A stretch of DNA of 64,000 nucleotides from Sulfobacillus benefaciens. Its GTDB lineage: Bacteria > Bacillota > Sulfobacillia > Sulfobacillales > Sulfobacillaceae. Position numbers and translations under genes: made by a program. The DNA lies in contig PXYW01000001.1 of NCBI GenBank assembly GCA_003023695.1, positions 5,060 through 69,059 on the forward strand. The letters run 5' to 3'. Numbering within the stretch: position 1 is the first letter of the stretch; each line of letters begins with the position of its first letter. This document shows positions 13,632 through 18,077 of this stretch, piece by piece. Under the pieces are notes generated by a model. It was not told the DNA's origin, did not search any database, and saw only the letters and a list, made by a program, of their open reading frames with translations.

Positions 13632-13763
13632 AACTCGGTCCCTCCTTAAAAGCCTGATGGTCGTGTCGACAGATCATGATGACAGTGCCAAGTCATGCAT
13701 ATTATGTCTTCGACACTTGTTGTCCATACTGGAAGAGATCGGTATCGGATGGAGGCTGGATCA

Positions 13764-14261
13764 ATGCGGCGTTATGGACCCTGGTTGGGGGGATTTGTGC
13801 TGGGAGGGGCGAGTTTGGCGTGCGTAGAAGCCCTTTGGCTTGGTTGGCATGGAATTACCATTAAAGTCACTCGTTATGAATTGCAACACGATGTGGCTCC
13901 GGTGATAAACACGCTGGTAACGCCAGTGTGGCCCTCGTTACGTCGACAATTATCGTATGACATGAAGCCATTAATTGACACGCAAATTGAGCAACTTATG
14001 GCGCAAATTCGCGTTTCGGTGGACGGCGTGAGCTTTAGTATCCCCAAAAGCGCCCAGGTAAATCTGCGAAATCGTTTGGTGCCGATGGTCAATAGACAGG
14101 TGGATGCCTATCTTGATCAGCAACTCACGCCGAAGCGCATGATTGCCCCTTTGTTCCAACGGTTAACCACGGCCCCGTCTGTAGCAGTAACCATTAAAGT
14201 GGGACCGTGGCCCCTTTCAATTCAGTTTGTGCCAAGTAGTTCAAAAACCCCAAGCCGATGA
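13764..14261 (+). CDS. Membrane-anchored protein of unknown function
   Basis: About 165 residues. An N-terminal hydrophobic segment (GPWLGGFVLGGASLACVEALWL) would act as anchor, and the rest is an amphipathic, Gln- and Leu-rich external domain (for example IDTQIEQLMAQIRVSV) ending with IKVGPWPLSIQFVP. I do not recognise the family. The ATG at 13764 is preceded by GGAGG at 8 bases; two in-frame upstream ATGs (13695, 13749) lack a site. It is divergent from the GH18-like gene, with about 130 bases between the two starts. Confidence 0.6.
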   Translation: MRRYGPWLGGFVLGGASLACVEALWLGWHGITIKVTRYELQHDVAPVINTLVTPVWPSLRRQLSYDMKPLIDTQIEQLMAQIRVSVDGVSFSIPKSAQVNLRNRLVPMVNRQVDAYLDQQLTPKRMIAPLFQRLTTAPSVAVTIKVGPWPLSIQFVPSSSKTPSR

Positions 14262-14831
14262 CGGAAATCCATTTATGGAACTTGCCCCGGGTTTCGATAT
14301 AACAACACCGCATTTTGATCAGGGTTGAGGTTTGTGCTGTTAAAAGTTTACCTCAATCGTTCAGAGTTACGCGCGTTTCCTACGGCGGGATTGGCCTCGA
14401 TCTTCAAAGTTAACCCCAGCCCGTCGCTGCGGAGACACTGAAATTTAATGTATGCACCCAATCAATTTCCCGGAGCGTGCCCGTATTTGTTCCACGAAGA
14501 TACGTGAAAGATGAGGCAGGTTTCTCGACGATGCTCTACAGGGCAGTGTAAAACCGTATCCATAGGTTTTTTCAAACCCGGTGGAACTCCTGATCCGCGT
14601 CATTAATAGTGGTAATCTAAACCCGCAACCCAATGCCCTTTATAACGTTTGCGAGGATCGTCGGTAAGAGTAAAGATGTTCTCTACCCACCCCAAGTCAG
14701 GCGTTATCCAACTCAAGTTTAATACCTTCAGATGGATTTTGGCGACGGGCACCATATTGGTTTCCAGTCGTCATGCTCGTCCGCCGCCCAGGCCAGTCGT
14801 TGATTCGCATTGTCCATGGGTGATAAGGGGC
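14262..14831. other. 570 bases without a convincing gene
   Basis: Short open frames occur on both strands, but none has a ribosome site with a recognisable product, and base composition is less regular than in flanking genes. It looks like degenerate DNA at the left edge of an accessory segment. No terminal repeat, tRNA or insertion sequence end was recognised. Confidence 0.5.
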
Positions 14832-14999
14832 TTAACAGGGGCCGAGTTGGAGGATGTTCAAGCGCCGCGCTTCACGCGAGAGGAACGCGGTGAGTTGGTT
14901 GTCGTCCAGCACATCGTAGGTTTCATACCGGGGAACCCGGCATTTTTCGGAACGCCCTCGAGCGGGGCAGAATTCGACCTTGCAGCGGGCGGCTGTCAT
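14832..14999 (-). CDS. Possible small cysteine-containing protein
   Basis: A 55-residue frame beginning MTAARCKVEFCPARGRSEKC and continuing with YETYDVLDDNQLTAFLSREARRLN. An alternative ATG at 15023 adds 8 residues. Three cysteines in the first 20 residues with basic residues between them could bind metal, but I recognise no family. GAGAGAGG upstream can serve as ribosome site. It is divergent from the HTH gene at 15097, an arrangement often seen for small regulated gene pairs. The orderly C-terminal helix makes it look more coding than its neighbours, but this is a tentative call. Confidence 0.35.
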   Translation of the reverse strand: MTAARCKVEFCPARGRSEKCRVPRYETYDVLDDNQLTAFLSREARRLNILQLGPC

Positions 15000-15096
15000 G
15001 ACCTCATGCCTCTCTCTTGACATGGGACCATTAAGTTCGTATCCTGAACAGGTAAACATATAGTTACACAGACAGTTAAACAGAGGGAGCTGTGGC

Positions 15097-15456
15097 TTGA
15101 ACAAGATTGAGGAGATAGTTAAGGATCCAAGCTTAACTGTGGCGGAACGTATTCGCCGCCTACATGTCTTAGGGCTGTCGCGAACGGAAATCGCACAGCA
15201 TCTCGACAAACGATACCAACATGTTCGCAACACCTTGGTGGGTCCGGGGGCGGCCGACGCTATCGCAGCCACCAAAGCCCGGATGATGAACGATGCGAAG
15301 GCACCGGATGGAGCTTCTGATGGGTCACCACTTTCGGGCACACCAATAAACGCACCTTCGGGCAGCCAACCTGATTGGGCTCAGGAATTGCTAGCAGAAG
15401 TAAGGCAAATTCGTGACCTATTGCAACAAATTCGGGACGACCAACGTGCGATGTGA
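15097..15456 (+). CDS. Small helix-turn-helix protein
   Basis: 119 residues starting with TTG at 15097, 8 bases after AGAGGGAG. Residues about 14-46 (LTVAERIRRLHVLGLSRTEI, then AQHLDKRYQHVRNTL) form a helix-turn-helix of the kind found in resolvase and sigma region 4 relatives. A Pro/Ser/Ala-rich linker follows, then a C-terminal helix (AQELLAEVRQIRDLLQQIRD) with heptad spacing that could be a coiled coil for dimers. It is probably a DNA-binding regulator or adaptor. The next gene begins 65 bases downstream on the same strand, so they likely form a pair. Confidence 0.65.
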   Translation: MNKIEEIVKDPSLTVAERIRRLHVLGLSRTEIAQHLDKRYQHVRNTLVGPGAADAIAATKARMMNDAKAPDGASDGSPLSGTPINAPSGSQPDWAQELLAEVRQIRDLLQQIRDDQRAM

Positions 15457-15521
15457 TTGTGTCTTAGCTAAACTCACGAGACCCTCGCAAAAGCGAGTTG
15501 AGATGGATGAGGAGGAGTTAT

Positions 15522-15779
15522 GTGTTGGAAGCCATAAAAGACTTCAAGAACGCACTGTATGCCGAATTCAATCGAGCTATGGAACAAAACGCACCGTACG
15601 TCGACATCAGATCGGGGGATCTTCACCGGAATGCCGGTGGCTATCCCGGTCCAAATCACCGTATGCCGTCCTGCTGCGCGGTTATGGAGCGAGAGATGAA
15701 GGTACACGATCAAATTCTTAAGGCACCGCCGCGGGGACGTGGAGCTAGTCTAACTATTCGGTACATGCTGCCTCGGTAA
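15522..15779 (+). CDS. Small protein with DLHRxxGGYPG / LTIRYxLPR motifs, function unknown
   Basis: About 85 residues beginning with GTG 15522 behind GGAGGAG. The middle holds IRSGDLHRNAGGYPGPNHR, followed by MPSCCAVM, and the end reads GASLTIRYMLPR. From memory this motif set recurs in small proteins near restriction and other defence-type genes, but I cannot name a domain and no function is established to my knowledge. Conserved His, Arg and paired Cys suggest nucleic acid or metal binding. It follows the HTH gene and precedes the HelD-like helicase by about 450 bases. Confidence 0.6.
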   Translation: MLEAIKDFKNALYAEFNRAMEQNAPYVDIRSGDLHRNAGGYPGPNHRMPSCCAVMEREMKVHDQILKAPPRGRGASLTIRYMLPR

Positions 15780-15798
15780 AACCTTTCCGACATGTGCG

Positions 15799-15826
15799 AC
15801 GAGGACGGGCCTAGGCCTGTCCTCGC
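15799..15826 (+). terminator. Hairpin after the HTH gene pair
   Basis: CGAGGACGGGC pairs with GCCTGTCCTCG, with one G-T pair, around the 4-base loop CTAG, 20 bases after the stop codon at 15779. There is no T-run, so it may be a weak terminator or an RNA 3' end stabiliser. Confidence 0.45.
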
Positions 15827-16232
15827 CATCATCCCTACTAGAGCCCAGCTCAATCTTGCCTTGCCAAACCATACCAAGCCCCGCTATGGGTCGCCATGTA
15901 ATTGTGACGCCGGCGAAGTGCAAGATTTGGCGGACGTGATTGGTGAATTAGTTCGTCTCTTACAGCCATGGGCACTGACGATTCAGGTGGCTTTAGGATA
16001 CGTCGAGTATCCCCATGGACCAGACGATTCGGGACCATGTCAATGCGCTGTTGAGCCATGTCAAGGGAGGTTGTCCCACACGTGCCTTGACGCTTTTCGC
16101 TACCCCATCGGCCGCAAACTTTGATACACTAATTATTCTCTGCCTTTGAATAGCATTTGAATTCCGAAATACCTGTACGGCTGTTATGCCGTTGTAGAAA
16201 AGCACCATGTTCCAGAAGAGGAGAGCAAATAA
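15827..16232. other. About 400 bases without a convincing gene
   Basis: A short frame at 16016-16150 (MDQTIRDHVNALLSHVKGG and on, about 44 codons) looks like a gene fragment but has no ribosome site and no recognised family. The 90 bases before 16233 are AT-rich and may hold the promoter of the helicase gene. AGAGGAGAG is its ribosome site. Confidence 0.4.
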
Positions 16233-18077
16233 GTGGAGAACGAGTCCAACCGAACTGCTAAGGAAAATGACATATTTGACGCATGGAAAAACTGGGCTGA
16301 GCGTGAATTGCCCCAGCGGCGGCAACGTGCAGACAAGGCGTACCAACGTGCGCATCAGATAAATGATGAAGTGGCCTGGCAGCACGCGGAAATTGTCGAA
16401 GCCGGTTATGGGCAGCTTAATGATATGCTTTTGGCGCAGGATCCCTACTTCTCCCGTATTGCTGCACAAATGCAGGACGTGGATGGCGAAACCTTCCAGG
16501 TGGACTTGCGAGTGCATCGTTATCACCGCTCCGAGGTGTTCCCATTAGATGATAGCAGGGAAATGTTGGACATTAGCCATTTGGCGCCGCTCGCCGATCT
16601 AGTGCGCAATCCCGCACAACAGGAACTGGCATTGACACTGCGTGACCGTGAATTTTACCAATGGCCGCAATCCGGCAATACCCCCCACATTCGTGTCGTA
16701 CACTGCAATGTGGAGGACATTGAAATTGAAAATGGGTGCGTTGTGCGAGTTGCGCCAAGATATGGAGCCATTTTCGAGGACCGCGTGCGGCGTCGGCTTG
16801 AGCGCTCTGCGCAGCCAGCACTCGACGTGTTGGCGGATGTGTTGGATAGGGAACAAAATGCCATCATCAGCAATCGTAATCCGCAACTCCGGTTGTTGAT
16901 TCTCGACGGCCCCGCGGGTACTGGAAAGACCGTTGTCGCCGCGCACCGGATCGCAGTTGCGGCTAGTCCACAGAGCATGGGCATTTACTTGACCCCAACC
17001 AATACATTGCGCAATTATATTGATCCGGTGCTGCCGCGTCTGGGACTCGAACGACAGCGGGCCCGTGCTTGGAGCCTAGCCGAATGGGCTCAGGCAGTTT
17101 GGCCAGAATTTCCCTGGGCCGATGACTTAAGCGGGATGGTGCCGGATTGTCCTTGGGATCAAAAGGCATTTGGCGACGCTTTAGACTCAGTACAGCGGGA
17201 TCATCCGAAAGCCAGTTGGCTGGAAATTTATCGTGAAGCAGGGCAGCGGTTGGGGCAACGGCCACGCCGGATGTTCGGAGTTGAAGATGTTGCCGCATTG
17301 TTATGGATGGGACCTTGGGCTCACCGGAAACTGCCAGGGCTCGAACCGCAATGGATCATCATTGATGAAGCGCAGGCCATCCCTCTTTTGGTATATCATG
17401 CGCTTTGGCGGTGGTTCGGGGGGAAGGTATCTTACATCCTGGCTGGCGATCTCATGCAGCAAGGGAGCCAGCATGAGTTTGACGGGTGGGCCCAAATCCA
17501 AGAGGCGCTTCAGGTCAAGCCTTCTCAAATTTCTCATTTATGGCTTCGACGCAGCTATCGCGTGCCTCCGATGATTCATGCTGCGTCCGAAAGATTGCGT
17601 CGTGCTATTAACCCGGAAGCAAATCTAAGTGAAAGTGTCACATGGCACCCGCATCCAGGAAAAATTACCTATAAACCGACCCAGTCTATCTCTCAAGTCC
17701 AAGAGGACGTTAAACAGCTGATAACCCATTGGAGGGCGGAGGGTATAAGCGCCATCGCGATACTTGCCCCCAGTGCTGACTTGCTCCATCATTGGGTGCA
17801 GCAATTGGCAGTCACCGGGATTGAACTGCAAATATTGCAGGGTCAAGAGAGCTATGGCGGAGGGGTGGTGTTGACCACCTTGGATATCGTACGGGGACTG
17901 GAGTTTGATGGGGTCGTGCTTCTCGATGTGAACAAGGCCGCCTATCCGGAGACGCCCTCCGGCGCACGTGCGCTATACACGGCACTGACACGGTCTAGAA
18001 AGTACGTACATCTTATTGCACTGTTGGATGGCCCAGATCAATCCCCCTCGCCCTGGCTTGCGCAAATCGTTTCGTAA
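16233..18077 (+). CDS. HelD-like superfamily 1 helicase / ATPase
   Basis: 614 residues. The Walker A motif is GPAGTGKT at 226-233, Walker B is IIIDEAQ ending at 381, and the SF1 motif VI region reads ALYTALTRSRKYVHLI near the C-terminus. The N-terminal part has a long charged helix pair (about 20-65) followed by DPYFSRI, which resembles the coiled-coil arm and GRI segment of HelD, a protein that removes stalled RNA polymerase from DNA. A phage- or island-type UvrD relative is the alternative. GTG start at 16233. It stands alone between a small accessory gene pair and the rpsB promoter, which may mean it came in with the island. Confidence 0.75.
   Translation: MENESNRTAKENDIFDAWKNWAERELPQRRQRADKAYQRAHQINDEVAWQHAEIVEAGYGQLNDMLLAQDPYFSRIAAQMQDVDGETFQVDLRVHRYHRSEVFPLDDSREMLDISHLAPLADLVRNPAQQELALTLRDREFYQWPQSGNTPHIRVVHCNVEDIEIENGCVVRVAPRYGAIFEDRVRRRLERSAQPALDVLADVLDREQNAIISNRNPQLRLLILDGPAGTGKTVVAAHRIAVAASPQSMGIYLTPTNTLRNYIDPVLPRLGLERQRARAWSLAEWAQAVWPEFPWADDLSGMVPDCPWDQKAFGDALDSVQRDHPKASWLEIYREAGQRLGQRPRRMFGVEDVAALLWMGPWAHRKLPGLEPQWIIIDEAQAIPLLVYHALWRWFGGKVSYILAGDLMQQGSQHEFDGWAQIQEALQVKPSQISHLWLRRSYRVPPMIHAASERLRRAINPEANLSESVTWHPHPGKITYKPTQSISQVQEDVKQLITHWRAEGISAIAILAPSADLLHHWVQQLAVTGIELQILQGQESYGGGVVLTTLDIVRGLEFDGVVLLDVNKAAYPETPSGARALYTALTRSRKYVHLIALLDGPDQSPSPWLAQIVS

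Follow-up and report, generated by a model that had tools for sequence, protein, structure and literature searches.

A probable junction between a mobile-element and defence-remnant insertion and a conserved HelD-type gene in Sulfobacillus benefaciens

The RNA polymerase-associated ATPase HelD has a clamp arm that interrupts its domain 1A (residues 292-538 in B. subtilis; PMC7749167), and its DWR motif (Trp cage) has been described as "absolutely conserved" (PMC8655204). DUF499 systems, also named Hma, are tripartite defence systems (PMC8565338, PMC12839542). A relative of the former and a piece of the latter lie side by side at positions 14832-18077 of a 64,000-nucleotide (nt) stretch of Sulfobacillus benefaciens (contig PXYW01000001.1), which as a whole is called the window below. 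Its source genome (G000) is a 4.1-Mb draft that is 95% complete. Genomes used for comparison are labelled G0xx and loci L0xx or L1xx; G001, G002 and G003 are congeners. An earlier sequence-only reading of this interval listed a divergent Cys-containing open reading frame (ORF), a helix-turn-helix (HTH) gene, a small gene for 85 amino acids (aa) and a HelD-like helicase, and proposed that together they might form a stress or defence module or be unrelated passengers. Our analysis indicates that the interval is probably not a module but the junction of two unrelated units: a conserved HelD-type gene, and an insert of ~1.87 kb composed of mobile-element and defence remnants and carrying two intact small genes. 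The features are as follows.

13695-14261, plus strand: conserved 188-aa gene, left flank of the insertion site; 79% identical in G003 (L060), where it stands directly before the helicase gene
14244-16108, no strand: inserted segment of ~1.87 kb, missing in G003 (blastn of the window against L060)
14307-14485, plus strand: eroded left end of an insertion sequence (IS) of the DUF772-type transposase kind, 75-85% identical to L091 2455-2670 (G003)
14786-14838, no strand: terminus of a repeated mobile element; four other places in G000 (L086-L089) are 91-94% identical to it, and G001 and G003 also carry it
14832-15341, minus strand: the Cys ORF of the earlier reading, probably no gene (its coding score is negative, and it runs antisense across the HTH gene and promoter)
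15017-15045, plus strand: promoter-like site TTGACA-17-TATCCT before the HTH gene (a consensus match; the count of such sites in the region equals chance)
15048-15082, plus strand: two direct ACAGKTAAACA copies at 24-nt spacing, downstream of the promoter and ahead of the HTH start, a possible operator
15097-15456, plus strand: 119-aa HTH protein (TTG start, GAGGGAG upstream, positive coding score)
15522-15779, plus strand: 85-aa protein of the GGYPG/NHRMPxCC family, predicted winged helix (GTG start behind AGGAGGAG; relatives; AlphaFold2)
15800-15825, plus strand: strong hairpin just 3' of the 85-aa gene (13-nt arms, -24.2 kcal/mol, z -2.85, without a T-run)
15876-16066, plus strand: frameshifted 3' end of a defence ATPase gene (hmaC/DUF499), matched in two frames by tblastn with the C-terminus of HmaC from G028 (E 2.6e-15)
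16233-18077, plus strand: 614-aa HelD-type superfamily 1 (SF1) ATPase with a shortened clamp arm, outside the insert (synteny, profile alignment)

The insertion is seen most directly by comparison with G003, where the gene order is miaB, a gene for a GH18 protein, the 188-aa gene and the helicase gene. In blastn of the window against L060 the homology ends at 14243 and restarts at 16109, and only ~94 bp separate the two flanks in G003; 14244-16108 is therefore extra DNA in G000. Other debris occupies the same intergenic spot in G001 and G002, which marks the spot as insertion-prone. The insert itself is a mosaic, and the claim of the sequence-only reading that a decaying stretch lies to the left of the small genes was borne out by the IS and repeat remnants found there. 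The related ORF in L091 matches PF05598; tblastn gives E 4.6e-5 for the IS left end in the window, from which the transposase itself is missing. In all copies of the repeated element the likeness stops sharply at ...GGGGCTTAACAG. This sharp end reads CTGTTAAGCCCCTTATCACCC on the other strand; the G000 copies vary in length, and by eye one of them lies beside an IS21-like gene fragment. Searches of the insert DNA against plasmids and phages gave no match, nor did a search of Rfam.

At the right end of the insert lies the defence remnant, which encodes the last ~60 residues of an HmaC/DUF499 ATPase and is 82% identical in nucleotide sequence to the G028 gene over 15910-16066; the G028 gene matches the PADLOC HmaC model at E 3.6e-40. 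The insert thus shares with the Hma and other DUF499-centred BREX-related systems the frameshifted 3' end of hmaC, but differs from them in that only ~60 codons remain, and a complete set of HmaA, HmaB and HmaC genes was not encountered in G000. The insertion-prone spot between the 188-aa gene and the HelD-type gene has received ~1.87 kb of debris, namely the IS end, the repeat end, the HTH and 85-aa genes and the broken hmaC 3' end.

The second unit, the helicase gene, is part of the conserved neighbourhood. It is 86% identical in G001 and G002 and stands beside rpsB there (plus tsf in G001), and in G003 it follows the 188-aa gene, so that the earlier statement that all these genes lie outside the conserved chromosome order does not hold for the helicase. 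Matches to it came from 30 of 61 relatives, other genera included. A position next to rpsB was seen in this genus only; the fetched stretches of G004, G009, G015 and G034 contain no rpsB. The codon score, calculated per codon with the window's remaining long ORFs as training set, is +0.144 for this gene. Broken frames in related strains, which the sequence-only reading had named as a sign against itself, were found for the helicase in G003, where an insert of ~170 bp interrupts the frame near its start (L060 6961-8034), and not in G001 or G004.

Aligned with hhalign, a profile of eight helicase relatives matched one of eight HelD-like proteins from the relatives over columns 1-613 (probability 100%, E 2.4e-46), and the best matches in the PDB were 6wvk and 6yxu, the two HelD structures. 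Besides this full-length homology, the protein has the SF1 motifs of HelD (classes I-III) and, in an N-terminal region of ~200 aa, an aligned DPYFSRI, which reads PYFGRI in HelD, and the invariant acidic residues D45 E46, which may form the tip of a secondary-channel arm; a single-sequence AlphaFold2 model was unusable (pLDDT, the predicted local distance difference test score, 35.5). It differs from HelD in its length (~614 aa vs ~700-780) and in its clamp arm, which comprises ~60-70 residues vs ~220; the stretch between the matched blocks spans ~69 profile positions, compared with ~224 residues in 6wvk. DxSHLAP stands at the place of the conserved DWRAP, and D113, S115, H116, L117 and A118 are invariant in the eight sequences. 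The best NCBIfam HelD score is 78 bits (E 3.6e-22), far below the cut-offs of 419 bits and higher. Most carriers of the helicase among the family genomes examined show no other HelD-type protein, and it may therefore do the job of HelD in these bacteria; G026 also has a canonical one. The helicase gene belongs to the chromosome of the genus, and its product is probably an RNA-polymerase recycling motor. This conserved HelD-type lineage seems to have lost the greater part of the arm to which opening of the RNA-polymerase clamp is attributed, and if it still recycles RNA polymerase, the clamp arm is not essential for recycling. A role as a GajB-like defence protein was considered and rejected, as the best PADLOC match has E 2e-8 vs 3.6e-22 for HelD and 2.4e-46 for the profile alignment.

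The gene list of the sequence-only reading stood for the HTH, 85-aa and 614-aa ORFs, and fell for the divergent Cys ORF. The codon score of the latter is -0.20 (-0.13 for its C-terminal part), in the range of spurious ORFs. It has no Pfam match, and its DNA has no match in the relatives except for a 53-bp repeat at its very end. Because the score is negative and the opposite strand here carries the HTH gene with its promoter, we did not count it as a gene; it is probably not coding.

The HTH protein consists of an N-terminal HTH, a low-complexity linker and a C-terminal helix, and its gene scores +0.136 per codon. Ribosome sites precede the HTH, 85-aa and helicase genes. The match to HTH_38 (E 0.0056) is below the cut-off, and no confident relative was found in 60 relatives, plasmids, viral contigs or a sample of ~400 genomes of the phylum; the best match in the last of these has E 0.008 and contains stops. 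The first 51 residues weakly match Rhizobium HTH-GIY-YIG proteins encoded beside a Shedu gene (E 0.04) and a Thermus HTH protein encoded directly before the gene of a Swt1-HEPN protein (tblastn E ~4), which we regard as leads and not as membership. On the Rhizobium plasmid (L152 2983-4752) the HTH domain weakly like that of the window is fused to a GIY-YIG nuclease, and Shedu and AbiGi genes adjoin. The Thermus plasmid pTHTHE1601 (L156 8553-18102) carries an island of helicase, Fic, DUF1156, RelE/HTH, HTH protein and Swt1-HEPN protein genes, adjoined by type I-U CRISPR genes.

Taken by their arrangement, the promoter-like site, the repeats, the HTH gene, the 85-aa gene and the hairpin look like a self-regulated two-gene unit. 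The two genes probably form one transcription unit, of which the hairpin is a possible end, and the ACAGKTAAACA repeats are suggestive of an operator; the HTH protein would bind them between its own promoter and start and so control the small-gene unit. The search of all 51 loci of the 85-aa family with the HTH protein (tblastn) returned no relative, and the pair, which the sequence-only reading had taken for a regulated two-gene unit, is therefore not a conserved unit; a conserved operon of the two genes was rejected on the same result. That both small genes are accessory, as the same reading held, agrees with their absence from the G003 site, with the lack of an HTH relative in the 60 relatives and with the 85-aa gene being present in them only as a decayed copy (G026).

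The motifs quoted earlier for the 85-aa ORF, IRSGDLHRNAGGYPG and GASLTIRYMLPR, are present exactly, and homology places the ORF in a real family. Its own frame scores best of the six. The protein has no match in Pfam, NCBIfam, PADLOC or PHROG and no sequence match to any solved structure. Whole-genome and contig searches recovered 51 loci, 38 in genomes of bacteria and archaea and 13 on viral contigs; the family, defined by the motif GGYPGxNHRMPxCC, thus extends over bacteria, archaea and phages. Invariant in all 38 aligned sequences are H35, G39-P42, H46, M48, C51, P69 and G74. A shorter NRMPxVC subfamily (L041-L050) does not keep H46 and C51, and a metal site formed by H35, H46 and C51 was rejected for this reason. 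A match in G021 (L004) proved to be a chance hit to phosphoglycerate kinase. L003 and L096, from G026 (another genus of the same family), hold a broken copy of the gene with several stops. AlphaFold2 with the family alignment gave a model with pLDDT 85.6 and the order helix-strand-helix-helix-strand-strand. Its structural matches are weak (Z <= 6.3) and include many winged-helix entries, among which we take RctB, RPC62, Stn1, RepE and a Z-alpha domain to belong; comparison of the model with viral proteins gave no clear match. From this model the protein is predicted to be a small winged-helix DNA-binding module. It resembles winged-helix domains in predicted element order and size, and differs from them in that a long conserved turn, GGYPGxNH, separates its second and third helices and in having no Pfam match.

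The family has a recurrent association with a candidate defence system. Homologues of the 85-aa protein form the C-terminal third domain of DUF6884 plus GIY-YIG-like fusions (L037, L038, L130); such fusions occur in Bacillota, and tblastn gave E 1.8e-25 against the third domain of the L037 fusion. PADLOC models name the first two domains of the fusion PDC-M57A (DUF6884) and PDC-M57B (GIY-YIG), and only those two were matched. In addition, separate genes of the 85-aa family lie close to M57A or M57B (L112, L110, L134). When DUF6884 and GIY-YIG domain models were built from the fusion proteins and confirmed with the PADLOC models for examples, the 85-aa domain was found fused or close to M57A and/or M57B in 11 of 38 genome loci vs 0 of 61 control loci, where three of the 11 had supplied model-building proteins or were same-genome copies (eight being independent) and the controls were other loci fetched in the same analysis, unmatched for lineage. 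The eight include a Nitrososphaeria archaeon (L112) and Treponema (L134). In the former (L112 5980-7365) the 85-aa family, DUF6884 (PDC-M57A) and GIY-YIG-like (M57B) genes stand in a row, a split version of the bacterial fusion. Among selected neighbours that were tested, given here as a list and not as a count, L124 has a type IIG-like restriction enzyme, L128 a type I restriction enzyme together with its specificity subunit, L129 a BrxD-like ATPase and L133 a HEC-06/Orf5-like protein. L124, from Syntrophomonas, is also an example of a complete DUF6884-GIY-YIG-85aa locus. In the literature collection searched, no paper names PDC-M57. The defence connection suspected earlier is thus upheld, by the hmaC remnant in the same insert and by the association of the 85-aa family with PDC-M57 and, in selected loci, with restriction genes. 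The co-occurrence survey that the sequence-only reading had proposed splits accordingly: the small genes are unpaired, which largely refutes the module, and the association of the 85-aa family with defence genes holds.

In PDC-M57 systems a domain of the 85-aa type would deliver the DUF6884 protein and the GIY-YIG nuclease-like protein to DNA. The window protein corresponds by homology to the third fusion domain and to the separate genes near M57A or M57B, but it stands alone behind an HTH gene, and a PDC-M57B gene was not found in G000. Lacking M57B, it is an orphan accessory that may act as a DNA binder or regulator, or else be on its way to loss. A bolder suggestion, speculative and quite unlikely in our estimate, is that the family is an unrecognised third PDC-M57 component, a winged-helix recognition module that aims the DUF6884/GIY-YIG pair at foreign DNA; the stand-alone copies among phage head/connector genes and orphan copies like the present one would then block or redirect it, as decoys or immunity factors. 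The family, small in size but widespread and outside all the family libraries searched, is tied to a candidate defence system and offers a testable third part for that system. For the window itself the outcome is mostly sobering, since the supposed module turns out to be a debris insertion next to a core gene.

We weighed four accounts of the interval. That everything from the HTH gene through the helicase is one accessory stress or defence module is very improbable: the genes are adjacent on the same strand and the GajB and NERD-UvrD helicase models of PADLOC weakly match the helicase, but synteny largely refutes it. Many genomes of the family retain the helicase in the absence of the small genes, as does the sister family; in G003 it adjoins the 188-aa gene without them, and it matches HelD far better than any defence helicase, so it drops out of the set as a conserved HelD-type gene. 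A narrower proposal keeps only the HTH and 85-aa genes as a functional defence or toxin-antitoxin-like unit, in which the 85-aa protein would be the effector and the HTH protein its regulator or antitoxin. Both frames are intact with good ribosome sites, a promoter-like site precedes the first and a hairpin follows the second, the pair sits in defence debris, and a two-gene order is typical of such units; nevertheless we consider it unlikely, as an HTH relative is absent from all 51 loci of the 85-aa family, the HTH gene is an orphan in the 60 relatives and the ~400 genomes of the phylum, and the 85-aa protein has as relatives DNA-binding-type domains, fused to other proteins or encoded near them, rather than known toxins. 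Unlikely, too, is that the HTH gene is left over as the regulator of an Hma (DUF499) locus since lost and that the 85-aa gene arrived separately; this account would refine rather than exclude the one we prefer. It draws on the hmaC 3' end downstream of the HTH gene in the same insert and on pTHTHE1601, where an HTH protein with a similar N-terminus is encoded directly upstream of the Swt1-HEPN gene and the locus also contains DUF1156 and helicase genes, a make-up that matches the published description of such systems. Against this, the Thermus match is weak and covers 51 residues, the HTH motif is generic, the examined part of the G028 locus contains no such HTH gene, and no HTH match was found in the relatives that carry HmaC.

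The best reading takes the small pair as the leftover of a defence island, two genes still intact but orphaned, next to a core gene unrelated to them. Several findings weigh against it: the codon score of the 85-aa ORF is ~0 and the fold matches of its model are weak; the HTH gene has no relatives in which selection or pairing could be assessed; promoter and operator are only sequence matches; HmaC has no match elsewhere in G000, so that no HmaC gene is left there; the usual partners of the 85-aa domain are lacking, with no match to PDC-M57B in G000 (M57A was not searched there); and the part played by three of the M57-linked loci in building the domain models and the lineage-unmatched controls count on the same side.

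Two further observations concern the 85-aa family elsewhere. On the viral contigs L139, L142, L145 and L148 stand-alone copies lie in the head/connector module, in an accessory gene slot, following the major head protein gene in L142, L145 and L148 and the head-closure gene in L139. In Treponema (L131, L132) the 85-aa gene lies just upstream of a small gene that by eye resembles a BrnT-type toxin.

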